From positions 1-47,577 of the forward strand of contig JABIEQ010000013.1 of assembly GCA_018651085.1 (NCBI GenBank): a DNA stretch of 47,577 nt, in the 5' to 3' direction. The position numbers and the translations under genes were made by a program. Shown here in pieces: positions 2,001 through 23,068 of this stretch. The notes beneath the pieces are model-generated. The model was not told the DNA's origin and did no database searches. It was given only the letters and a program-made list of their open reading frames with translations. Position 1 is the stretch's first letter. Each line of letters begins with the position of its first letter. This DNA comes from Candidatus Magasanikiibacteriota bacterium (GTDB lineage Bacteria; Patescibacteriota; Patescibacteriia; Magasanikbacterales; UBA922).

Positions 2001-2056
2001 TGAATGGAACAGTAATGGTGCCTACTTTTTTGTATGCATTACTATTGTTCCATTCA
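2001..2056 (+). repeat. Long inverted repeat upstream of the GC-rich gene at 2100
   Basis: Arm 2001-2017 pairs with 2037-2056 apart from a three-base bulge. Its end is 44 bases before the ATG at 2100. It lies in the transcribed leader if the promoter at 1812 is used. Confidence 0.85.
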
Positions 2057-2099
2057 CCAAGAAGATAGATCAGAAACCAACTCACTCAGGGAGATACCC

Positions 2100-2966
2100 A
2101 TGTTTAGCATCAGCAAGTTTGTCGTCGCTCTTCTTGCCGCCACCATCCTGACCTTGGGGTTTTCTTCTTCTGCTGTTGCAGAAGGAGAACTCGTCGCCAT
2201 GCAGGCGGACGTCAAGCGCATCGCGGATGCACTTGACAAGTGCTCTGCGAATTGTGGCAAGACCGCCAAAGTCTCGAAGGCGAGCGGTGCTGCTTATCGG
2301 CGCCGGCTCGCGGAGCGCAAGAAGCACTACGAAACCACTGAGGAGATCCTCGATCGCGTTAAGGAGATCGAAAAGCTCCTTGACGCGATTGACAAGAAAG
2401 CGGATCTGATCCTGGAGGGTCAGGTGGTCATCCGAAATGACATCAGTGAGATTCCTGACAAGGTGGACAAGAAGCTCGAACCGAGGTTCGAGTCCGTCGA
2501 AACCCTCATTCGTGAGGGGATGGCGATTTCGCAGTGCCACGCGCATGCGAAATCTCTTCGGGAGGTCACTGACCGGGAAGGAAACAGCGCCGGTACTACG
2601 GAACTCATCAATGCGCTCGCCGAGTGCATCACGAGGATCACTCCTGATCTCACGGCCATCACTCTGATGGCTCTTGACGAGGGAGTTGATATCACCACGG
2701 GAGCCGATGGTTCAATGATCATCCGGCGGAGTGCGAACTCTCCCGACGAGTGGTACGGAGCTGCCAAGTGGCTCCTTCCGAGCCTCATCGGTATGGCAGT
2801 CGGCTATGCCGGTGCGGAGTGGGTTTATCCGGAGCTTTTCCTTTCGCCTGACGGGTCTCAAGGGCCTCCGGTCCCGACCGCCCGCACTGGTGCGGGTTGG
2901 AAGGGAGGCCTTATTGGCCTTGGTCTTGGCCTGACGGTCTCCATCACCTGGGAGGCCATCGACTAG
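2100..2966 (+). CDS. GC-rich exported protein of unknown function with a coiled-coil-like core
   Basis: This 288-residue protein is not recognised. Residues 1-27 form a clear signal peptide: Lys6, a hydrophobic core, and cleavage expected after AVA. A helical, charged region follows (about 28-145) with heptad-like Leu/Ile spacing and many K/E/R/D, suggesting a coiled coil. A few cysteines are present (CSANCGK near residue 42, and later AISQCHA and LAECI). The C-terminus has two hydrophobic segments (about 224-245 and 265-285) separated by a Gly/Pro-rich loop, so it may end in a membrane hairpin. I chose ATG 2100 because it begins the signal peptide and has AGGGAG six bases upstream; the in-frame ATG at 2034 lies in the loop of a hairpin. 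The G+C content is far above the neighbouring AT-rich genes, suggesting transfer. It has its own promoter at 1812. Confidence 0.85.
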   Translation: MFSISKFVVALLAATILTLGFSSSAVAEGELVAMQADVKRIADALDKCSANCGKTAKVSKASGAAYRRRLAERKKHYETTEEILDRVKEIEKLLDAIDKKADLILEGQVVIRNDISEIPDKVDKKLEPRFESVETLIREGMAISQCHAHAKSLREVTDREGNSAGTTELINALAECITRITPDLTAITLMALDEGVDITTGADGSMIIRRSANSPDEWYGAAKWLLPSLIGMAVGYAGAEWVYPELFLSPDGSQGPPVPTARTGAGWKGGLIGLGLGLTVSITWEAID

Positions 2967-3006
2967 TCATTTCTCCACTCTCCACACATCTCAGTCTCCG
3001 TCCTTA

Positions 3007-3046
3007 GGAAGGCGGTCGTATACCTTGTTGTATCCGACCGCATTCC
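3007..3046 (+). terminator. Strong hairpin after the GC-rich gene, no T-tract
   Basis: Arms 3007-3023 and 3030-3046 are 17 bases long with two mismatches and a 6-base loop. The position 40 bases after the stop suits a terminator or an mRNA 3'-end stabiliser. No U-run follows, so the terminator call is an inference. Confidence 0.55.
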
Positions 3047-3048
3047 TG

Positions 3049-3081
3049 TAGACACTGTAATCTTAAATAGATAATAGTGTG
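3049..3081 (+). promoter_or_regulatory. Possible promoter with overlapping dyad before the lipoprotein gene at 3227
   Basis: TAGACA (3049-3054) is followed by GATAAT (3070-3075), a short 15-base spacing, or by the weaker TAATAG (3072-3077) at 17. An imperfect inverted repeat, 3053-3064 with 3070-3081 (10 of 12 pairs), covers the same bases and could be an operator. The call is weak. Confidence 0.3.
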
Positions 3082-3126
3082 TATAGGAATATATTTAAGT
3101 GTTCTTTACATATTACTGGCGTAATA

Positions 3127-3181
3127 CTTTAGGTTTGGTTCTAAGTAAAAAAATATTTTTTATTTTGCTCCGAACCTAAAG
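3127..3181 (+). repeat. Inverted repeat with AT-rich loop upstream of the lipoprotein gene
   Basis: Arms 3127-3138 and 3170-3181 match at 11 of 12 positions, the exception being a G-U pair. They enclose an A/T-rich loop. The repeat ends 45 bases before the ATG at 3227, close to the spacing of the inverted repeat before the GC-rich gene at 2100. Confidence 0.85.
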
Positions 3182-3226
3182 TCTGAAAACTGAAACAGAT
3201 ACGAACCCTTTCTGGAGGAAGAAATC

Positions 3227-4579
3227 ATGATCAGCAAGAACAACAGTATCGTCACAGTCATCGTCGCCGTCATCGCCATTGCCGGGTGCGTGGATCCTCG
3301 TGATACGCACGAGTTCGGGGGGATTTCCTCTTCGAATGAGAGTGTTTCCGAGTGCTTCATTGCCTCGGATTGCCTGTCGGACCATCGTTGTGATGGTGGG
3401 CAATGCGTCTACGATCCACCCGAGTGTCGGGAGGATCGTGACTGTCCGGACGATCAGGTTTGTGATGAGGGCGAATGCACGCCGGAGGATCCGGAGTGCA
3501 TTCAGCACAGCGACTGTCCGGACGAGCAGGTCTGCAACGGCGGTGTCTGTACGGCACCGGCGCCACCGGATTGCTCCGAGGACAGGGATTGTCCTCGTGA
3601 TCAGCAATGCCTTGACGGGCGCTGTACTATCGAGGAAGAGCCTGAGCCGGAGGATCAGTGCGACAGCATCGAAGACTGCCTCGAAGGTGAGGTGTGTATT
3701 GACGGCCGTTGTTTCCCGCAGGTTCCCGACGATCCGGAAGGATGTGAGGGAGATCGCGACTGCGAAGAGAGCGAGCGCTGCGTAAACAGCGTTTGCGAGT
3801 TCTTCTGTCGTGATCACTCCCACTGTGCCGACGAGAGTCGGTGCACGCGGGATGCGTGTGACTTCGACACTGGAGCGTGTCAAAATTCGCGTATCGACTG
3901 CGCGGATGACGACATCGTTACTCTTGACTTCTGCGACGAGGAATCGGAGCAGGAGAATCCCTGCACTTATCTCGAGTGCGTGTCCGAGGACCTGTGTTTT
4001 CAGGCCCTCTGGCAAGGGAACCGGTGTGTCACTCGTCCTGTTGCTAACTGTGGTGACGGGACGGTCTGCGAGGAGGGTGCCTGTGTGCCGGCTCCTTGTG
4101 AGTCGGCGTCGGATTGTCCTAACAACAACCCGTGTGAGCGGGCGATCTGTGAGGGGGGGCTCTGTGATTACGAGCCCTCCCACCAGTGCGAGGAGGAAGG
4201 ACAGTTCTGTGATGGGAATTCGGGTGATTGCATCACCCAAGATCCTTGCCCTGAGTCTTGCGACGACGCCGACGAGGCCACTTTCGACTTCTGTGACGAC
4301 GAGGGCGAGTGTCAGCACTTCGCTCCTGTCGAATGCGAGGAAGGGACGGCTCCGGATCCCAACACCGGGATTTGTCACCCCGTCGATAATCCGGATAGCA
4401 ACTGCGATCCGGAAGAAGAGGAGTTCGTCTGTCGTCAATTTGGCGACACTCGTCGATTGCACCATTTCCGGTGCGTTCAGATCGACGAGAACACGGCCGT
4501 CCAGATTTCTCTTGACGATTGTGGCCCTATTGAGGGCGCCCGCTGCAGAGCGGGAGACGGCTGTCAGCCGCGCCAGTAG
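3227..4579 (+). CDS. GC-rich cysteine-rich lipoprotein with EGF-like repeats
   Basis: This 450-residue protein starts with a lipoprotein signal peptide: hydrophobic residues 8-19, lipobox IAGC, lipidated Cys21. The mature protein should sit on the outer face of the membrane. From about residue 42 it is a run of short units of the type C-x-x-D-x-D-C-P-x-x-x-x-C-x-x-G-x-C, familiar from myxobacterial and other large extracellular proteins and probably disulfide-bonded. Residues 401-447 are a separate five-cysteine domain (VCRQ ... CGPIxGARCR ... GCQ) that recurs in the gene at 4926. ATG 3227 is supported by GGAGG eight bases upstream. The gene is GC-rich (35 of 60 bases in the line at 3421) and ends in TAG. 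No catalytic motif is visible; adhesion or surface binding is plausible but unproven. Confidence 0.88.
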   Translation: MISKNNSIVTVIVAVIAIAGCVDPRDTHEFGGISSSNESVSECFIASDCLSDHRCDGGQCVYDPPECREDRDCPDDQVCDEGECTPEDPECIQHSDCPDEQVCNGGVCTAPAPPDCSEDRDCPRDQQCLDGRCTIEEEPEPEDQCDSIEDCLEGEVCIDGRCFPQVPDDPEGCEGDRDCEESERCVNSVCEFFCRDHSHCADESRCTRDACDFDTGACQNSRIDCADDDIVTLDFCDEESEQENPCTYLECVSEDLCFQALWQGNRCVTRPVANCGDGTVCEEGACVPAPCESASDCPNNNPCERAICEGGLCDYEPSHQCEEEGQFCDGNSGDCITQDPCPESCDDADEATFDFCDDEGECQHFAPVECEEGTAPDPNTGICHPVDNPDSNCDPEEEEFVCRQFGDTRRLHHFRCVQIDENTAVQISLDDCGPIEGARCRAGDGCQPRQ

Positions 4580-4592
4580 CGACCACCAACCT

Positions 4593-4683
4593 TGAGGCCG
4601 GTCGCGACCACATTGTCATGTGTATCCCCATTCGGGTAGATCCGTGACATCGTGGTGCCTCAGCCCTTGCAAAAGCAAGGGCT
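4593..4683 (+). other. Folded 3' region after the lipoprotein gene
   Basis: An outer stem TGAGGC/GCCTCA (4593-4598 with 4657-4662) closes a self-complementary GGTCGCGACC (4600-4609) and an imperfect 13-base stem (4608-4620 with 4643-4655). A perfect 9-bp hairpin with an AAAA loop follows directly (4662-4670 with 4675-4683). No T-run follows. It could be a terminator of unusual form or an mRNA-stabilising structure. Confidence 0.5.
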
Positions 4684-4746
4684 CCCACTGTATCTTTCTT
4701 ACATTTATGTGTAGGGGAGATTAATGGGAATTTAGTTCATTACAAC

Positions 4747-4808
4747 ATTCCCTGTGAGATATATATATATATATGTATATATATGTATACATATATTCCA
4801 CAGGGAAT
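4747..4808 (+). repeat. 62-base near-palindrome with an alternating AT core
   Basis: Perfect 10-bp arms ATTCCCTGTG/CACAGGGAAT (4747-4756 and 4799-4808) enclose about 40 bases of mostly alternating T and A, which is itself largely self-complementary. It lies 117 bases before the ATG at 4926, inside the 346-base gap 4580-4925. I see no gene or convincing promoter in the rest of that gap. Confidence 0.85.
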
Positions 4809-4925
4809 ACTACGAACTTTGAGAAAAGTGACGAGTATCTTTGTGTTGCGATTGTAACCAAGGAAGGGGCCCCCGTGTTGGGAACGCCTCTATGATTTCG
4901 ATTCACTGAGCAAACGGAGGATTCC

Positions 4926-7073
4926 ATGCTCAAGATGACCACTGGTCTCGTTTCGTGCCTCATCGCGTTGGCCCTGGTAGGCTGCGCGAATGAGAATGTC
5001 AACAACAACCCGTCTTCGGAGGTCTTGACCTTTGAGGGCACCTACACCTGTCGCACGAGCGGCGGGTACTTGTACGCGGTTCCTGACGGAACTGACCTTC
5101 TGGTGAGCGGGGATTTCGATCTCGCCACCATGGAGTGCGGCTACCTCTTCGGTAACGGACGGTTCAGCTGTCGTGCCGACACCGGGTGTCTCGACTACGG
5201 GAACTATGTTCCTGGGGTTCAGACGCACTCGTCGGGCGACAAGTACGAGGAGTTCCGTTCGGCGCACCAAGCTCTCGAGCTCGATCCTGGCGATCCTTTC
5301 CAGGACTGCGAAGGCCCTTGTGGTCCCGCGTCTTCGACGGATTGTGCGGAGGAAGGCGAGGGCGTCACGCTTGACGGGGAAGATTTCGTGGACAGATTTA
5401 TGTGCGCGATGATCATCACCGACGGGGTCTGCGCTATGAGCCCTATCGCGCTTCGTTGCGAGGAAGGGACTCAGTGCGAGCGCACTGGTCCGTACCCCGC
5501 GTACGGAATTTGCGAGCTGATTCCTCAGTGCGATGAGGACAGCGAGTGCGACAACGGCGAGTTCTGCGATGGTGCCGAGACTTGCGTCGATCGTTTTTGT
5601 GTGGACGGCGAAGCGCCTTCCATCGAGGACGGGATCGGTTGCACTGTCGGTGCTTGCGACGAAGACAACGACACCATCATTCACACCCCGAACGACGTCC
5701 TTTGTGACGATCAGATCTTTTGCAATGGTACGGAGGCTTGCAATCCTTCGGACCAAGACGCGGACGATCAGGGGTGCATTCGTGCCCCTCGGGATTGCGA
5801 TGACAACAACGATTGCACGGAGGAGACTTGCACGGAGGAACTTGGTTGCGTGAACGATGCTCCGGCACGGGACTCCGTCGCTTGTGACGATGGTCTCAAC
5901 TGCACCGAGGATGATACCTGCTTCGGCGGGATCTGCTCTGGTGGTCAGGTTGATTGCTCGGGTGAGGCGTGTGAGTCCGGTACCTGCGACGAGCAGGAGG
6001 GCTGCGTTTTCAACGACATCCCGGACGAGGAGCTTTGCTCTGACGAGTCGGGTGGGCGCTGCTTCGACAGCGCTTGCGAGATCGATCTCTGCGAGCAGGG
6101 GGCATTGTCCGTCTGCCGACAGGTTGACGACGGTAACCTCTATCACTTCTCCTGCCTCCTGGCCGACGACCAGGCCCAGCATGGCTTCTTCATCGGAGCC
6201 GAGAACTGCGGTCCCATCAACGGGGCTCGCTGCCGGGTAGAGGGCTGTCAGACTCACGCGTCCTGTCAGGACGATACCGAATGCGGTCTTGAGGAGATCT
6301 GCAACAACGGCACCTGTGCGCGGGTTGACGCGGACTGCTTCGACGATGGGGATTGTCCTCAAGGTCAGGTGTGTTCGGGTGGCCAGTGTGCTGCCGAGTG
6401 CGTGGGGAACGAGGACTGTCAGAACGGGCAGGTTTGTTCTGATGGCGCTTGCGTCGCGTGTCGCGTCGATCTCGAGTGCTCGCAGGGTGAGATCTGTGAG
6501 CAAGGTGCTTGCCAGGATCCGGTTTGTGTGGACGACGGCGACTGCCTCCAGGGGCAGCAGTGTGACACCGGCCGTTGTGTGGCCGAGTGCGTGGATGACG
6601 GCGACTGTGCTCAAGGCGAGGAGTGTCTCGGCGGAGTTTGCGTGAACACGCAGAACTCGTGTGCCGACCACACCGACTGTCCCCTCGGGCAGAGCTGCGA
6701 GAACGACAGTTGCGTCGACGGGTGCGTGGACAACACGCGCTGTGCGGACAACGAGAGTTGTGTCGCACGGCAGTGCCTCCTTTCGGAGAGCTCCTGTCAG
6801 CGGATGTCCTTTGATGGTGACCCTTCGGGTTCACCGGACGAGTTCTTCGCTCTCGCGTTCAATGCTCGCGGCGATCGTTTGGCTGATCCCGACACTTCGG
6901 GTGATGGGCCGTATGCGGTCGCACAGGGATCTTGCTCTGTTGCGGTCTTTGGCGTCGACATCGACACTTGTCGGTGTTTCCTCGAGAACAACGTCAACGT
7001 CGAGTGTGCTGAGCTTCCGGATTCTCCGGGGGTTGTCGGTTGTGTCCACAATCGGACTCAGCCGCAGCCGTAG
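4926..7073 (+). CDS. Large GC-rich cysteine-rich lipoprotein
   Basis: A 715-residue protein with lipobox LVGC (Cys20) after a short signal peptide. Residues 21-100 are unlike the rest and may be a folded head (contains TYTCRTSGGYLYAVPDG). From about 195 to 390 come cysteine-rich repeats containing GExCxxGxC and DDxxDCTEETC patterns. Residues 396-442 are the five-cysteine domain shared with the gene at 3227. Residues 445-635 hold about seven units of the form C-x-x-D-x-D-C-x-x-G-x-x-C-x-x-G-x-C. The last 75 residues form a separate cysteine-containing end. GGAGG at 4916-4920, five bases before ATG, fixes the start. Like its neighbour it is GC-rich and ends in TAG. The shared domain and repeats suggest the two lipoproteins are paralogues or work together. 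The role is unknown; surface binding or structure is a reasonable guess. Confidence 0.88.
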   Translation: MLKMTTGLVSCLIALALVGCANENVNNNPSSEVLTFEGTYTCRTSGGYLYAVPDGTDLLVSGDFDLATMECGYLFGNGRFSCRADTGCLDYGNYVPGVQTHSSGDKYEEFRSAHQALELDPGDPFQDCEGPCGPASSTDCAEEGEGVTLDGEDFVDRFMCAMIITDGVCAMSPIALRCEEGTQCERTGPYPAYGICELIPQCDEDSECDNGEFCDGAETCVDRFCVDGEAPSIEDGIGCTVGACDEDNDTIIHTPNDVLCDDQIFCNGTEACNPSDQDADDQGCIRAPRDCDDNNDCTEETCTEELGCVNDAPARDSVACDDGLNCTEDDTCFGGICSGGQVDCSGEACESGTCDEQEGCVFNDIPDEELCSDESGGRCFDSACEIDLCEQGALSVCRQVDDGNLYHFSCLLADDQAQHGFFIGAENCGPINGARCRVEGCQTHASCQDDTECGLEEICNNGTCARVDADCFDDGDCPQGQVCSGGQCAAECVGNEDCQNGQVCSDGACVACRVDLECSQGEICEQGACQDPVCVDDGDCLQGQQCDTGRCVAECVDDGDCAQGEECLGGVCVNTQNSCADHTDCPLGQSCENDSCVDGCVDNTRCADNESCVARQCLLSESSCQRMSFDGDPSGSPDEFFALAFNARGDRLADPDTSGDGPYAVAQGSCSVAVFGVDIDTCRCFLENNVNVECAELPDSPGVVGCVHNRTQPQP

Positions 7074-16842: not shown

Positions 16843-16871
16843 AAAGGTGTTTCGTAGTGTAACACTTTTTT
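16843..16871 (+). terminator. Terminator-like hairpin in the sigma-factor leader
   Basis: Stem AAAGGTGTT/AACACTTTT (16843-16851 with 16861-16869, one G-U pair) with a 9-base loop, followed by a run of six T ending at 16871. It lies between the promoter and the start codon, so it could attenuate transcription of the sigma operon. No competing structure was identified. Confidence 0.5.
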
Positions 16872-16890
16872 GATTCTGACGTCTTCTATT

Positions 16891-17436
16891 ATGAACATGA
16901 ATATTGAGGAGAAAATTTTATTATATGCTGTCCGTACGAAAAAGGACCCGGAAGCATATGGAAAGCTTTATGATCTTTATATAGATCGGGTATACCGGTT
17001 TGTGCTTTTCAAAATATCTCATAAAGAGCAGGCAGAAGACCTGACTAGCGAGATTTTTCTAAAAGCATGGCGATATCTTATCCGACCTGATGAGAAGTCA
17101 GTAAAGCATTTTCGTGGGTTTATTTACCAGATTACGAGAAATACGATTATTGACTGGTATCGTGAACGCGCAAAAAAACAAGAGTTTTCTCTTGACTCAG
17201 TGGCTGAAGCGCCTGCCCGTCATGGTTCACCTGAGCAAATTGCTGATATGTTTGATGCAAATCTGACATTAGAGCTTTTAAAAAAGCTTAAGCAAGAGTA
17301 TCAGGAAGTTATCTTTTTAAAATATGTCGAAGGATTCTCTACTGCGGACATTGCTCGCATTGTAGGAAAGAAACCTACTGCTGTGAGAGTTACCCTTCAT
17401 AGAGCAATAAAAAAGCTCAAAAGTTTGACCCCTTAA
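16891..17436 (+). CDS. RNA polymerase sigma factor, ECF-type (sigma-70 family)
   Basis: 181 residues from ATG 16891. Region 2 (about 20-85) includes YGKLYDLYIDRVYRFVLFKI, EDLTSEIFLKAWRYL and GFIYQITRNTIIDWYRERAKK, the core-binding and -10-recognition helices. Region 4 (about 125-178) is LLKKLKQEYQEVIFLKYVEGFSTADIARIV followed by the recognition helix KKPTAVRVTLHRAIKKLK. There are no regions 1 or 3, as usual for ECF factors. The first ATG (16891) has T at -1 whereas the second (16897) has C, which favours the first. The DUF5667 membrane protein starts 29 bases downstream, a familiar pairing in Patescibacteria that suggests a sigma/anti-sigma-like unit. The S-layer gene further down is a plausible target. 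Confidence 0.9.
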   Translation: MNMNIEEKILLYAVRTKKDPEAYGKLYDLYIDRVYRFVLFKISHKEQAEDLTSEIFLKAWRYLIRPDEKSVKHFRGFIYQITRNTIIDWYRERAKKQEFSLDSVAEAPARHGSPEQIADMFDANLTLELLKKLKQEYQEVIFLKYVEGFSTADIARIVGKKPTAVRVTLHRAIKKLKSLTP

Positions 17437-17465: not shown

Positions 17466-18938
17466 ATGAGTACTCCATTGAAGGAACAATTTAATAGGTT
17501 AAAATCAAGCGATCAGTTTACTCCTGATCGTGTTTGGGTTGAAAAAAACAGAACACAACTACTTTCTCAAATTTCTAATACTGTTGAAGACGTACAAACA
17601 CCATCTTGGTTTGAAAGATCAATGAGTGCGTTTGATGTATTTATGCCAAAACGGTTAATGGTGGTCGCAAGACCCGTCTTTGTACTGTTTCTTGCTTTTT
17701 TTGTTGGTATTAGTGGATATGGTGTACGAGCAGCTTCCGCAAACAGTTTGCCTGGGGACGCATTGTATTCAGTGAAACGAGCGTCTGAAAGTGTGCAATC
17801 AGTTTTTGTAAAAGAAAAAGTATTATTTGAAGTAGAACGAGCACAAAATCGTATTGAAGAAGTAAAGCAATTAAATGAAACACAAGCACAGGTTTCTTCT
17901 CAAACACTTACCAAAACAATTCAATCATTGTCTAAACATATTGAAGACGCTGGAGAGTTTTTAGAAGAACAAAAACAAGCGGCAGTTGATAACACTTCAG
18001 AAAAGCAAACAGAAGAAATAGAAGCTGAAATTGTTAATGCTGCAATTGAACTTGCTAAGACAAAACAACAGATTGAAGATTTAGAAGAAGATGTTGTTGA
18101 TATTATTATTACTGATGAAGCGAGTGAAGAAGGATCTTCTGAAGAAGATATTGTTATTTCTGATATTACCTTGGAAGTAAACAAAGCTGAAGATTCTTTA
18201 GAAATTGTGCAATCACAAGCAATTGATCAAGTTCTTGAAATTGATGATGTGTCTGACGACCAATTAAAAGAGTTAGTAGATATTACTCTCGAAGAAGCCG
18301 AAAAAGAAACTGCGTCTGCTAATGCTGCGTCTTCAGATATTGAAGAAGGTTCTGACGTTGTTGGGGCAGAACTTGAAGAAGTGTTAGCTGAGGAAGAAGC
18401 AATTGAAGAAGAATTTAAAGAAGAAGGCACTGAAGAAGAAGTAGATCTTTTAGTTGATGTTGATCTTGTTCCTGATACTACGCAGACATCTACTACATTT
18501 ATTGTTGAAGAAGAACTTGAAGAGGAAAATGAAGAAGAAACTTCACGAATACTTAACTCTTCAGAAGACGTAGAAGAGTTTGTTGACGGTGTTGTGAAAA
18601 ATACACAAGAAGCAACAGACGAAATCGAACGAACCATTGAAGAAGTCAAAGAAGTATTGGTTGACGAAACGTCTACTGGAGAATTAAAAGAAGCATTAAG
18701 AAAAACTCAAGCAGTATTAAGAGATTCACAGGGGTTGTCAAATGATGTGGAAGACGCGGAAGATGTGATTGATACGGTAAAAGATTTTATTGAAGAACAA
18801 CAAGACGTTATTACTGAAGAAACAGTACCAGATGATACTACTGATGTACCTAAGAATGAAGAAGCTGATGTAGAAGAAGAAGTGACGATTGAAACGACTG
18901 ATGTGGAAGAAGTTCCTATTCCTTTAGCTAATTCATAA
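17466..18938 (+). CDS. DUF5667 membrane protein with a very long acidic tail (possible anti-sigma partner)
   Basis: 490 residues. The cytoplasmic N-terminus (about 1-58) could contact the sigma factor encoded just upstream. A single transmembrane helix (about 62-83) follows, then the DUF5667 signature (SANSLPGDALYSVKRASE, about 90-107) and a helical region to about 150. The remaining 340 residues are dominated by Glu and Asp with Thr/Ser/Val, strongly acidic and coiled-coil prone; DUF5667 proteins usually have a shorter tail. Outside the cell this tail could bind cations or basic surface proteins. The anti-sigma role is inferred from gene order and topology, since no zinc-binding anti-sigma motif is visible. 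It probably forms an operon with the sigma factor. Confidence 0.8.
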   Translation: MSTPLKEQFNRLKSSDQFTPDRVWVEKNRTQLLSQISNTVEDVQTPSWFERSMSAFDVFMPKRLMVVARPVFVLFLAFFVGISGYGVRAASANSLPGDALYSVKRASESVQSVFVKEKVLFEVERAQNRIEEVKQLNETQAQVSSQTLTKTIQSLSKHIEDAGEFLEEQKQAAVDNTSEKQTEEIEAEIVNAAIELAKTKQQIEDLEEDVVDIIITDEASEEGSSEEDIVISDITLEVNKAEDSLEIVQSQAIDQVLEIDDVSDDQLKELVDITLEEAEKETASANAASSDIEEGSDVVGAELEEVLAEEEAIEEEFKEEGTEEEVDLLVDVDLVPDTTQTSTTFIVEEELEEENEEETSRILNSSEDVEEFVDGVVKNTQEATDEIERTIEEVKEVLVDETSTGELKEALRKTQAVLRDSQGLSNDVEDAEDVIDTVKDFIEEQQDVITEETVPDDTTDVPKNEEADVEEEVTIETTDVEEVPIPLANS

Positions 18939-18954
18939 GTTTTATTATTAATAG

Positions 18955-19127
18955 GTACTGTGTGGCAGTGAGTGTCTCAATGATGTGGGACATGTACTGC
19001 CATACAGTACGCCTCGATTTTGGTCGAGGTAGATGTATATTCTAGGTCCGTGTACAGACTTAGAACCGAGTACTTATGTACTCAAATGTAACACCGAAAG
19101 GTCGAGGCCTACGGGGCCGCGTTACAT
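18955..19127 (+). ncRNA. Highly structured leader of the S-layer gene (candidate cis-regulatory RNA)
   Basis: Five stems lie in a row in the 269-base gap. (1) 18955-18969 with 18996-19010, 14 of 15 plus one G-U, with a smaller stem inside. (2) CCTCGA/TCGAGG, 19012-19017 with 19024-19029. (3) 19041-19048 with 19057-19064, one G-U. (4) GAGTAC/GTACTC, 19068-19073 with 19078-19083. (5) ATGTAAC/GTTACAT, 19086-19092 with 19121-19127, closing a multibranch element with ACC-GAAA-GGT and a GGCC/GGCC stem. It resembles no riboswitch class I know. It may control or stabilise the S-layer mRNA, or be a separate small RNA. Eighty unstructured bases separate it from ATG 19208. No certain promoter was found. 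Confidence 0.6.
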
Positions 19128-19207
19128 TATCTAGTAAAAACTTATATTCCTGACGTCCAAATTAATGGATTGCGTGGGGGTATAGGGTAAAAGGTTCTTA
19201 TTCATTT

Positions 19208-22200
19208 ATGAGTAATACGAAAACATTCGTGAACAAAGCATTGATGTCAGCTGTGGTTATTGTCACAGTATTCTCAATGCTCGGACTAGGAGCACTCGTA
19301 TCTCCAGCTGGAGCATCAGCAGTTTCTGTTGATGAAATCTTCACTGGTGATAACGCACGTGGTAATAGTCCAGCTGTATATTACATCAACGCTGACTTTA
19401 AAGGTGTTGCTTACCCAAATGGTTTGGTTTTCAAACAATGGACTGGTAAAAACGCTGGAGCTGGTGATGGTGTAAAACGTCTTGATGGAAACATTCTTGA
19501 TGTTATTAGTTCTGCTAAAAATATCGTTCATCCTCGTCCAGGATACGGTATCTTTACAACTCCAGACCGATCTGGATTATTTCACATGGCTCCAGGGCAA
19601 GTTGCTCACCAATATGCTGATTTTGACGCTATTGAAGGAGTATGGGGAATGTCAGTTACTGACATGATTGCAAAAGGTTGGGTATATGATTATCCTTCAT
19701 TTTTCGCAAATCAACTTGACTTTGCTTCAAACAAACTTGACGGATCAAGCATTCCAGCTGGAATGACCGTTAAAGTTTCTGAAACATTCTACTATGTTAA
19801 CGCTGACGGAATGTGGTATGAGTTAGATGTTGATGCATCTGACGTATTTTGGCCATATGCAAGTCATAACACTGTAGGTGCTGACGAATCTGACGAAAGT
19901 CTTACACTTGACGATCTTGACGCTCCTGATCAAAAAGGAAGTTCAAGTGACTCTTCAGAAGACAATACTGACGGAAACGATGATCCAACAAGTGGTAACT
20001 TAACAGTAAGTCTTTCTGCTAATACACCTGCATCAAAGACTCTTTCAAACAGTACTGCTCACAATGTGATGACTACTGTTCGTGTTAAGGCTTCAAATGA
20101 CGACGTTGTTATTCGTGGTCTTACTGTTACTGTAACTGGTCTTATTACAAGAACAAACATTGACGCTGTTAGTGCTTGGGCTGATGGATACCTTCTTGGT
20201 GACCCAATCAGTTCTGTAAGTACTGATGACACTGTTGTACTTGGTTTTGATCAACCACTTACAATTGAAGCTGGTGATCATGTTGATATTGATCTTGCTA
20301 TGAGTTTTGGTGCAGCTGCAACAAGTGGTGTTGTTGGTGCTCAAATTGCAAAAGCAAGTGATATTGATACTGCATCTAGCGTGAGCGGATCTTTCCCTAT
20401 TGGAGGAGACGCACTTTTTGGTCTTACTGATGGAAGTGCTTCACTTGCTGACGTAACACTTGAAATGTCTTCTGTTGGTGGTCTTACGACTGAACCAACA
20501 TCATCTACAACAGGTAACCTTGACGTAGGTGACAGACAAGACATCGCTAAGGTAAAGCTTACTCAATCAAATGGTGAAGCTGCTATTGAAGCTGAATCAT
20601 TTACTTTCTTTTTTGACGGAGACATCAGAGATAGTGATCTTGGAGAATTCGAACTTCGATCTCATGATAACACTGTGATTGCAACGTCAGAAGAAATGAG
20701 TGACCGATATCTACACATGAGAGTTGTTGATGGATATACAATCCCTCTTAGTTCAAATCGTACTCTTACATTGAGTGCTAAAATGGTTGACGGATCAGGA
20801 CGATTTTTCCGAGCACAACTTCAAAACAATTATGACTTTGTGATTCGTGATCTTGGTACTGGATTTGCTCTTCTTCCTTCAAGTGACACTGCTTCATTTG
20901 CGCTTAGCGCATCTGACGGTTACTTTAAGATGAAGTCAGGATCTGTTTCAATTTCAAAACGATCTGATTCTTGTTCTGTAAGTCAATCTGCTGGAACAAG
21001 TGATATTGCTCTTGCAACATTTGATGTTCGTGCTATTGGTGAAGAGTTTGAAACTCGTAGAGTTGGTCTTAAGATCGCTACAAGTTCTGTAACTGCTCAA
21101 GCATTAACAGGAAATGTACGACTTGTTGTTGGTGGTGAAGTTGATAGTAACTGTGAAGTTACTGGTGGAAAAACTGTTCATACTCTTTCTGCAGGAAACT
21201 CTGCATTCACATTGTATAACAGCGCTTCTACTCAATACACTCTTTCAACTCGATTCACTTTACCTACTGATGAAGCTCTTCAAGTTCATGTTGTTGGAAA
21301 CATTCCTTCAGCTGCAACTTCAGCTTCTAACTATACAGTAAGTATTGGTAACCTATACGGTAAAAGACTTTCAACAAAAGATTTTCTTGACAACACTCCA
21401 GGTTCAACTGCAAATGTTGACGGAAACACTGTTTCTGTGGATGTAGCAAGTCTTTCTGCGTTTAAAGACACCTCATATGGTAACCGAACAGTTCCTGCTG
21501 GAAGCACACAGACTCTTGGACAATGGATTTTCAAGGCTGGTGATGCAGAAGGAATTTGTACCAACAGTGTAACCTTGTCATTTGACGGGAACAATGGTGG
21601 TTCATTTGATGCACCAACTGATTTAACTGCAATGCAATTGTATTGGGGTGACGAAAAGTTTGGTGGAGAAATTGGAACAGGTGCAACAAGCTCAAACACT
21701 TATAACGGAAGTGGTTTCTGTCTTGACAGAAACGAAACTGCTGTTATCAGATTAAAAGCTAATGTTGTTTCTGGTACTACTGGTGCTGTAAGTACAACAC
21801 TTGATACTATTTCATCTGTTGGAGAACTTACAACAAACACTGTTACTAATTCTACAGTTGTTGGACAAGATATTACTTTTGGAGCTGCTAATGTTGTAAT
21901 TAGCGCTGCTAGTGATGTTTCAACAATTTCAAGTATTCATCAAGCAGGTCAAACTGGTGTACAGGTAGGTAAATGGAAGTTTGACGTTGCTAATGAAACT
22001 ATTACCCTTAACAAGATTCGTTTCCAATTAAGAGATGATAGCTTTGTTGATGACACTGGTGCTGGTAATTTTGCTGGTTTCAAGTTGTACAATGCAAATG
22101 GTACATTCATCGCTTCAGGAAACTATGAATCAGGTTCAGGTGCTGGTTATGTTGAGTTTGATGGAATTTCATACTCACTTTCAGCAAACGAGATCACTTA

Positions 22201-23068
22201 CCTTGTATTAAAAGCTGATATAAGTGGTTCTGGTGATCTTGACAGTCGAAGCATTAACATGTTCGTTGTTAGAAGTGATTCTTCTACTGACATGGAAATC
22301 TTTGCTTCAACTGGTGGTACTCTTACTACAAGTCAAATTGACGCTACTTCTGGTGATAACACCACAAATAGCCGATTTGCGACTTCAACTGAGTATCTCT
22401 ACCATGATGCTGCACCATCTATTGCTGCCGTTGACTTTGGTGGAACCATCAATCAAAGCACACAAGCACAAATTTTCCGATTCACTGTTTCAAATAATGG
22501 TGCACGGGAATTACGTCTTAGTACTACTACTATTACTGTTAGTGCGAGTGGTTTGACAGGTGATACTACTGCAACAGGTACAGTAAGTAGTTGGGAACTT
22601 TGGGAAGTAAATGGTAGTGGTGGTCTTGGTACGCAACTTGCGACAACATCAACATGTGTACTTTCTGGAGGATTAAACCCTGCTGAATCTTGTTCTTCTA
22701 ACACTGCTGCAGGTGCATCTTTGAATGTTACTTTCGGAAACGAAAATGACGTTAATAGTCTTCTAGGTGATTTCACTGTAGGTATCGGAACTTCACGCAC
22801 ACTTGCGTTGGTTGCTGACACAAACAGTATTTTCAACGGGAAGACACAAGGTTCTGTAACCATCTCTGGTAAACTTGATGGTGCTACAGGATATAGTGAT
22901 GCTGACGCTGCTCAGGAATCAAACTGGGCTGGTGGTACAGGTGGTATTCTTGCCCCTGATGCTCCATTGCTATACTTCTACACACCAGTAAACGGTAGTG
23001 AAACTGCTGCTAATGGTGCGTCTGACTCTTACGATGTTATCGGAAGAACATTGAGCCTTGCTCTCTAA
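19208..23068 (+). CDS. S-layer-like surface protein, 1286 residues
   Basis: A signal peptide covers about residues 1-38, with cleavage after AGASA. Residues about 40-225 contain two related-looking modules with conserved aromatic positions (PAVYYINADFKG ... FYYVNADGMWYEL), possibly an anchoring domain. An acidic Ser/Asp/Gly linker (about 240-264) leads to a long series of beta-sandwich domains rich in Thr, Ser, Ala, Asn and Gly (to 1286). Cysteines are rare. The size, the composition and a strong terminator directly after the stop fit the main S-layer protein of a Patescibacterium. Codons end in C more often than in neighbouring AT-rich genes, consistent with high expression. The many Thr/Ser and Asn residues would give acceptor sites for glycans made by the surrounding locus; that link is inferred. 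No Shine-Dalgarno sequence; T at -1. Confidence 0.85.
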   Translation: MSNTKTFVNKALMSAVVIVTVFSMLGLGALVSPAGASAVSVDEIFTGDNARGNSPAVYYINADFKGVAYPNGLVFKQWTGKNAGAGDGVKRLDGNILDVISSAKNIVHPRPGYGIFTTPDRSGLFHMAPGQVAHQYADFDAIEGVWGMSVTDMIAKGWVYDYPSFFANQLDFASNKLDGSSIPAGMTVKVSETFYYVNADGMWYELDVDASDVFWPYASHNTVGADESDESLTLDDLDAPDQKGSSSDSSEDNTDGNDDPTSGNLTVSLSANTPASKTLSNSTAHNVMTTVRVKASNDDVVIRGLTVTVTGLITRTNIDAVSAWADGYLLGDPISSVSTDDTVVLGFDQPLTIEAGDHVDIDLAMSFGAAATSGVVGAQIAKASDIDTASSVSGSFPIGGDALFGLTDGSASLADVTLEMSSVGGLTTEPTSSTTGNLDVGDRQDIAKVKLTQSNGEAAIEAESFTFFFDGDIRDSDLGEFELRSHDNTVIATSEEMSDRYLHMRVVDGYTIPLSSNRTLTLSAKMVDGSGRFFRAQLQNNYDFVIRDLGTGFALLPSSDTASFALSASDGYFKMKSGSVSISKRSDSCSVSQSAGTSDIALATFDVRAIGEEFETRRVGLKIATSSVTAQALTGNVRLVVGGEVDSNCEVTGGKTVHTLSAGNSAFTLYNSASTQYTLSTRFTLPTDEALQVHVVGNIPSAATSASNYTVSIGNLYGKRLSTKDFLDNTPGSTANVDGNTVSVDVASLSAFKDTSYGNRTVPAGSTQTLGQWIFKAGDAEGICTNSVTLSFDGNNGGSFDAPTDLTAMQLYWGDEKFGGEIGTGATSSNTYNGSGFCLDRNETAVIRLKANVVSGTTGAVSTTLDTISSVGELTTNTVTNSTVVGQDITFGAANVVISAASDVSTISSIHQAGQTGVQVGKWKFDVANETITLNKIRFQLRDDSFVDDTGAGNFAGFKLYNANGTFIASGNYESGSGAGYVEFDGISYSLSANEITYLVLKADISGSGDLDSRSINMFVVRSDSSTDMEIFASTGGTLTTSQIDATSGDNTTNSRFATSTEYLYHDAAPSIAAVDFGGTINQSTQAQIFRFTVSNNGARELRLSTTTITVSASGLTGDTTATGTVSSWELWEVNGSGGLGTQLATTSTCVLSGGLNPAESCSSNTAAGASLNVTFGNENDVNSLLGDFTVGIGTSRTLALVADTNSIFNGKTQGSVTISGKLDGATGYSDADAAQESNWAGGTGGILAPDAPLLYFYTPVNGSETAANGASDSYDVIGRTLSLAL

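Follow-up and report, generated by a model that had tools for sequence, protein, structure and literature searches.

The window, by which we mean the whole stretch of 47,577 nucleotides that was analysed, contains a gene for an S-layer-like secreted surface protein preceded by a spacer of 269 nt (18939-19207). On the other side of the spacer lies a DUF5667-domain gene, and upstream of this a gene for an ECF-type sigma factor. The order ECF sigma factor, DUF5667 protein, leader and S-layer-like gene is conserved, and the DUF5667 gene occupies the same position in 9 of the 10 relatives compared, across families. This gene order suggests a putative sigma/anti-sigma pair dedicated to the cell surface. 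As read from the sequences, the spacer holds three conserved domains, which are called E1, E2 and E3. The features are the following.

16870-17436, plus strand: ECF-type sigma factor gene, upstream and co-directional (Pfam Sigma70_r2 and r4_2; NCBIfam sigma70-ECF above cut-off).
17466-18938, plus strand: DUF5667-domain gene, 490 aa, directly before the leader (Pfam DUF5667, E 1.2e-7).
18955-19010, plus strand: E1, a long hairpin with the conserved base TACTGTRTGGC/GCCATACAGTA (fold, pattern search).
19011-19083, plus strand: three lineage-variable hairpins joining E1 and E2, at 19011-19030, 19040-19065 and 19068-19083 (fold).
19085-19128, plus strand: E2, a class-wide bulged hairpin P1-AAAGGUCGA-P2, with P1 at about 19085-19094/19119-19128, the unpaired AAAGGUCGA at 19097-19105 and P2 at 19106-19110/19114-19118 (covariance model, covariation in 60 distinct sequences).
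19141-19186, plus strand: E3, a start-proximal hairpin with the conserved internal loop GAC (19152-19154)/GCG (19172-19174) (fold, shuffles, fixed-register pairing).
19189-19194, plus strand: AAAAGG, candidate Shine-Dalgarno site (sequence, 16S rRNA end CACCTCCTTT, pair probabilities).
19208-23068, plus strand: S-layer-like secreted surface protein gene, 1286 aa (signal peptide, conserved N-terminal domain, codon selection).

The original prediction placed five successive stems in 18955-19127 and took them for more than random spacer would give. All five are present in the fold, and these 173 nt reach -83 kcal/mol (z -8.46), which none of 200 dinucleotide shuffles equalled; the full spacer folds at -106.2 kcal/mol (z -7.23 relative to shuffles). 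The G+C content is 0.395-0.435 across the element, higher than the 0.32-0.37 measured over much of the gene upstream, with which it was compared. One stem was described as 15 bp long; it exists, but its length is 16 bp (18955-18970/18995-19010), and in the window it continues with 8 more pairs above one 1x1 mismatch. The closing helix ATGTAAC/GTTACAT was located at 19086-19092/19121-19127. The GNRA-capped hairpin which this helix was said to hold, ACC-GAAA-GGU, is predicted for the sequence of the window but shows no covariation above shuffling in 60 relatives, and the GAAAGGUCGA stretch is a conserved unpaired strand. Nor does the structured region end at 19127 as had been proposed: a further conserved hairpin, the sixth stem, is found at 19141-19186. 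That the structure fits no known class agrees with Rfam 15, in which the window has no match at the gathering score and 18900-19250 has none at E 10. Between E1 and E2 the relatives carry hairpins different from those of the window. At seven loci (L029, L030, L032, L035, L037, L061 and L063) a conserved unpaired AAGGGCA-like linker was seen among the hairpins of this interval; a copy in the window is not obvious.

The structure which is most widely conserved is E2. Its architecture across homologues is P1 - CAAAAGGUCGA - P2 - P1', and the covariance model, which was grown from a three-sequence seed because MAFFT misaligned short E2 sets, matches the window at 19086-19127 (E 3.2e-6) as the sole copy in the genome. 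Among 60 distinct sequences, both partners have changed in every one of the 14 pairs, 94.3% of the cells are paired against 57.6% after shuffling, and the double-change cells number 311 against 90, with a covariation score of 0.897 against 0.225; it should be noted that pair counts from large covariance-model alignments are inflated, since such alignments are fitted to the modelled structure. Three safeguards, none of which depends on the fitting alone, are the sliding controls, a wobble test and the position of E2 before 30 of 30 genes, to which we return below. Sliding reduces the covariation from 0.90 to 0.06-0.13, and a slide of the partner by one base gives 0.12. The wobble test shows 81 G-U against 11 A-C pairs, an asymmetry which would not arise from a structure on the opposite strand and which means that the structured RNA is the gene-sense strand, that is, the strand of the S-layer mRNA. 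The secondary structure of E2 is conserved and is backed by compensatory changes. The original prediction had been made to depend on conservation and covariation in relatives, and both were found.

The unpaired core of E2 is nearly invariant: every one of the 66 instances has G at position 17, U at 18 and G at 20, and position 19 is C in 63 and position 21 is A in 61 of them. The helices vary freely around this fixed single strand, which implies that recognition, be it by a protein, by an ion or by the RNA itself, is directed at the single strand. A quite different function for the strand would be that of a ribosome standby or enhancer site, in which AAAGG pairs with the CCUUU end of the 16S rRNA; the 16S rRNA of this genome has the 3' end given above, and AAGG is present in 48 of the 60 distinct E2 sequences. 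In the remaining 12, however, AAGG is replaced (e.g. by AATCGG, AACCGG or AAAAGTCGA) while GU[C/U]G[A/G] is kept in 60 of 60, so that the part resembling a Shine-Dalgarno sequence is not the most constrained one. Since sequence variants break precisely the pairing part, the Shine-Dalgarno or standby reading of the E2 AAAGG was rejected, and we give it very little credence.

The E2 model finds 66 instances across 83 loci, all of them at the leader, 25-145 nt upstream of the start codon and on the same strand. A scan of the order (86 genomes) gave zero or one match per genome, and with strict filters E2 was found class-wide in 27 of 380 sampled genomes; in the new class-wide matches which were examined, the gene that follows encodes the same N-terminal domain and the one that precedes is usually a DUF5667 gene. 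A phylum-wide sample of 380 Patescibacteria genomes yielded 5 matches, all within the class and none outside. When the filters were made permissive in 39 relatives, 3 of the 19 matches fell elsewhere than at the gene, each with an E value in the range 0.1-0.5. Seen from the gene, the best-matching homologues in the order, one per genome, are preceded by E2 in 30 of 30 cases, of which 28 were read directly in the upstream stretch and two (L156 and L157) were taken from the model-match coordinates of the order scan. E2 thereby marks one full-length gene among up to nine genes per genome with the same N-terminal domain. Same-strand, fixed placement relative to one gene family across genomes is expected of a cis-acting leader, and it is found here. 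The strong autonomous fold could also belong to a separate small RNA made from the spacer, outside the S-layer mRNA. A free small RNA would be expected to move, whereas E2 keeps to one strand and to the same range of distances from the start codon of the same gene, on the scale of a class, and a separate RNA must be considered extremely improbable. It is nearly certain that the region is a conserved structured leader of the S-layer-like gene. The prediction of such a leader upstream of an S-layer gene is supported by conservation and strong covariation, and by the presence of the leader directly before the same gene at nearly every homologous locus examined.

The possibility that a promoter directly precedes E2 as a general rule was considered and abandoned, since TATAAT-like boxes upstream of E2 show no enrichment over shuffles and the good cases (L078 and L081) are isolated. 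The TATAAT-like box is found immediately before E2 in L078 and about 19 nt before it in L081; in these two loci, judging from the position of the box, the mRNA may begin with E2 itself.

E1 has a more restricted occurrence. It starts 16 nt past the DUF5667 stop codon in the window and consists of a nearly fixed base of 11 bp which carries a freely variable apical stem of 30 to 142 nt; the apical stems of 16 genomes fold with z values of -2 to -8. The exact pattern was found in 8 of 46 genomes of the family, one copy each except for one genome which has two, and the window's genome has a single copy. The copies checked lie upstream of the same S-layer-like gene, and E1 is confined to the window's family. 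Within the family a DNA similarity search recovered the E1 piece as the only part of the spacer, most of the spacers being too diverged. That E1 might be a dispersed mobile repeat was ruled out by the copy number and by the location of the newly found copies before the same gene. In family f8 of the same order (L024-L027 and other loci) the place of E1 before E2 is taken by another long hairpin, whose conserved base is TTTCTTTTTCC/GGAGAGAGAAA; the two are apparently swapped 5' hairpins.

The position of E1 invites the hypothesis that the spacer is an intercistronic processing or attenuation region in an ECF sigma - DUF5667 - S-layer operon. E1 would be cut, or would block exonucleases, leaving the regulator part of the message short-lived and the S-layer part long-lived. 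The conserved gene order, the start of E1 so soon after the DUF5667 stop codon and the lack of a promoter signal between the genes all fit this hypothesis. It leaves the class-wide invariance of the E2 core unexplained, however, and the long E1-like hairpins vary among families, which makes it unlikely as the explanation of the whole region.

The protein encoded downstream has homologues across the order, and a scan of named genomes found them in Candidatus Magasanikbacteria, Uhrbacteria and a few other Parcubacteria, the group to which the window's genome belongs; the contig scan for homologues was made with the protein alignment subset A2, alignment A1 being too diverse. The protein has no sequence match in Pfam, NCBIfam or PDB, and no known S-layer family or domain was recognised in it. 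The predicted model is beta-rich and of low confidence (mean pLDDT 61), and a fold search of PDB with this low-confidence model returned generic beta-sandwich matches alone. The codon usage is more informative. C-ending codons make up 0.48 of the two-fold families in the S-layer-like gene and about 0.1 in most of its neighbours at equal GC3, and 20 of 21 loci show a higher share in the S-layer-like gene than in the one upstream. This appears to be a sign of the strong codon selection typical of very high expression, and a large, secreted and very highly expressed protein would fit an S-layer. The N-terminal domain is not covered by Pfam or NCBIfam, and a genome may hold as many as nine copies of it; of the four matches with the domain in the window's genome, one alone has the leader.

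Close to the start codon lies E3, which is built of an outer helix, the GAC/GCG internal loop and an inner helix, and which ends roughly 10-20 nt before the start. In 33 of 39 relatives the sequence folds better than all 100 shuffles. The outer helix (P1), tested in a fixed register, is 87% paired against 64% (maximum 73%) in shuffled sequences and has 50 double changes against 19, with 40 G-U against 5 A-C pairs. The conservation of E3 extends over the window's order and not beyond it. The AAAAGG which follows it is mostly unpaired in the ensemble according to the pair probabilities.

These properties of the start region bear on the hypothesis of a feedback switch, in which E2 would serve as the sensor. 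Its ligand would be an ion, a small molecule, a secretion factor or the S-layer protein itself, and binding would turn S-layer synthesis down or up. With its roughly 40 nt, its strictly conserved unpaired core and its freely changing helices, E2 has the pattern expected for an aptamer or a protein site, and it is tied exclusively to one highly expressed exported protein. Against the switch, neither an alternative pairing which hides the start nor a terminator with a U-run was seen between E2 and the gene in the window, and E2 accompanies one gene only and no metabolic genes, in contrast to most metabolite riboswitches. Nor did the folds of the window, some alternative ones included, reveal a riboswitch expression platform, either as a terminator or as a sequestered start; membership of a riboswitch class is not supported. 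The feedback switch is therefore regarded as possible but rather doubtful, and a class-wide S-layer RNA sensor or receptor, be it for an ion, a metabolite, the S-layer protein or an export factor, is given the same modest chance. Action at a step before translation is also conceivable, with the spacer that contains E2 serving as antiterminator or attenuator.

The explanation we prefer overall, by a slight inclination, is a multi-domain 5' leader of a new cis-acting family, in which the E2 bulge is bound by a factor and E1 and E3 are protective and start-opening, respectively. This leader would act in cis on its own message. The unpaired strand of E2 would be the putative site for a trans-acting factor, probably a protein, which sets the stability and/or the translation of the S-layer message. 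E1 would be a 5' protective or processing hairpin which sets the abundant S-layer message apart from the ECF sigma/DUF5667 message upstream of it, and E3 would leave the adjoining ribosome-binding site unpaired. Since E1 is restricted to the family and E3 to the order, neither is essential to the shared function. S-layer mRNAs in other bacteria have been reported to be unusually stable (PMC8056022), and it is these long-lived messages, together with the high output of the gene and the unpaired start-proximal AAAAGG, which lead us to favour an effect on stability or translation over a switch. The specific mechanism, a stabiliser or translation aid bound by a factor, is put forward more tentatively than the multi-domain leader.

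Known systems offer partial parallels. In lactobacilli the surface-layer gene slpA is preceded by a structured mRNA leader. Such leaders of S-layer mRNAs, messages for which a long life has been reported (PMC8056022), resemble the one described here in that an extended, structured untranslated region precedes a surface-layer gene with very high expression. What differs is that the present leader has one motif which is kept, with covariation, across a class. The ompA-type 5' hairpins resemble the present leader in placing one or more stable hairpins ahead of an abundant envelope-protein message with an open ribosome-binding site. The hairpin at the 5' end of the ompA mRNA is a stabiliser, and stabilisers of this kind need the stem alone, whereas the invariant unpaired core of E2 implies that it is recognised. 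We know of no sequence or structure common to the known S-layer leaders and this leader. Small bulged-hairpin cis elements, such as protein-binding leaders and small riboswitch aptamers, share with E2 the size of about 40 nt, the variable helices and the fixed unpaired strand; E2 differs from them in having no Rfam match even at E 10, and its ligand or protein partner is putative. A literature search on S-layer leaders or structured RNAs in Patescibacteria, conducted outside subscription papers, found no relevant paper. We rate the leader as a new family of the established type "cis-acting leader RNA", with no match in Rfam or in the searched literature.

The occurrence of one RNA motif before the same surface gene across a class of uncultured ultra-small bacteria suggests a shared control or protection of the coat protein at the RNA level. 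If the sensor reading were true, E2 would couple S-layer synthesis to surface coverage in ultra-small Patescibacteria. E2 is also a practical marker, since it singles out the principal S-layer-like gene from its paralogues, of which a genome may have up to nine. With the covariance model available, the binding partner, the effect on half-life and the response to ions are accessible in vitro with short RNAs, even though the organisms are uncultured. As a minor observation elsewhere in the window, the long plus-strand open reading frames in 2034-7073 have a GC3 of 0.65-0.70 and resemble shadows of minus-strand genes (3176-4465 and 4890-6671).
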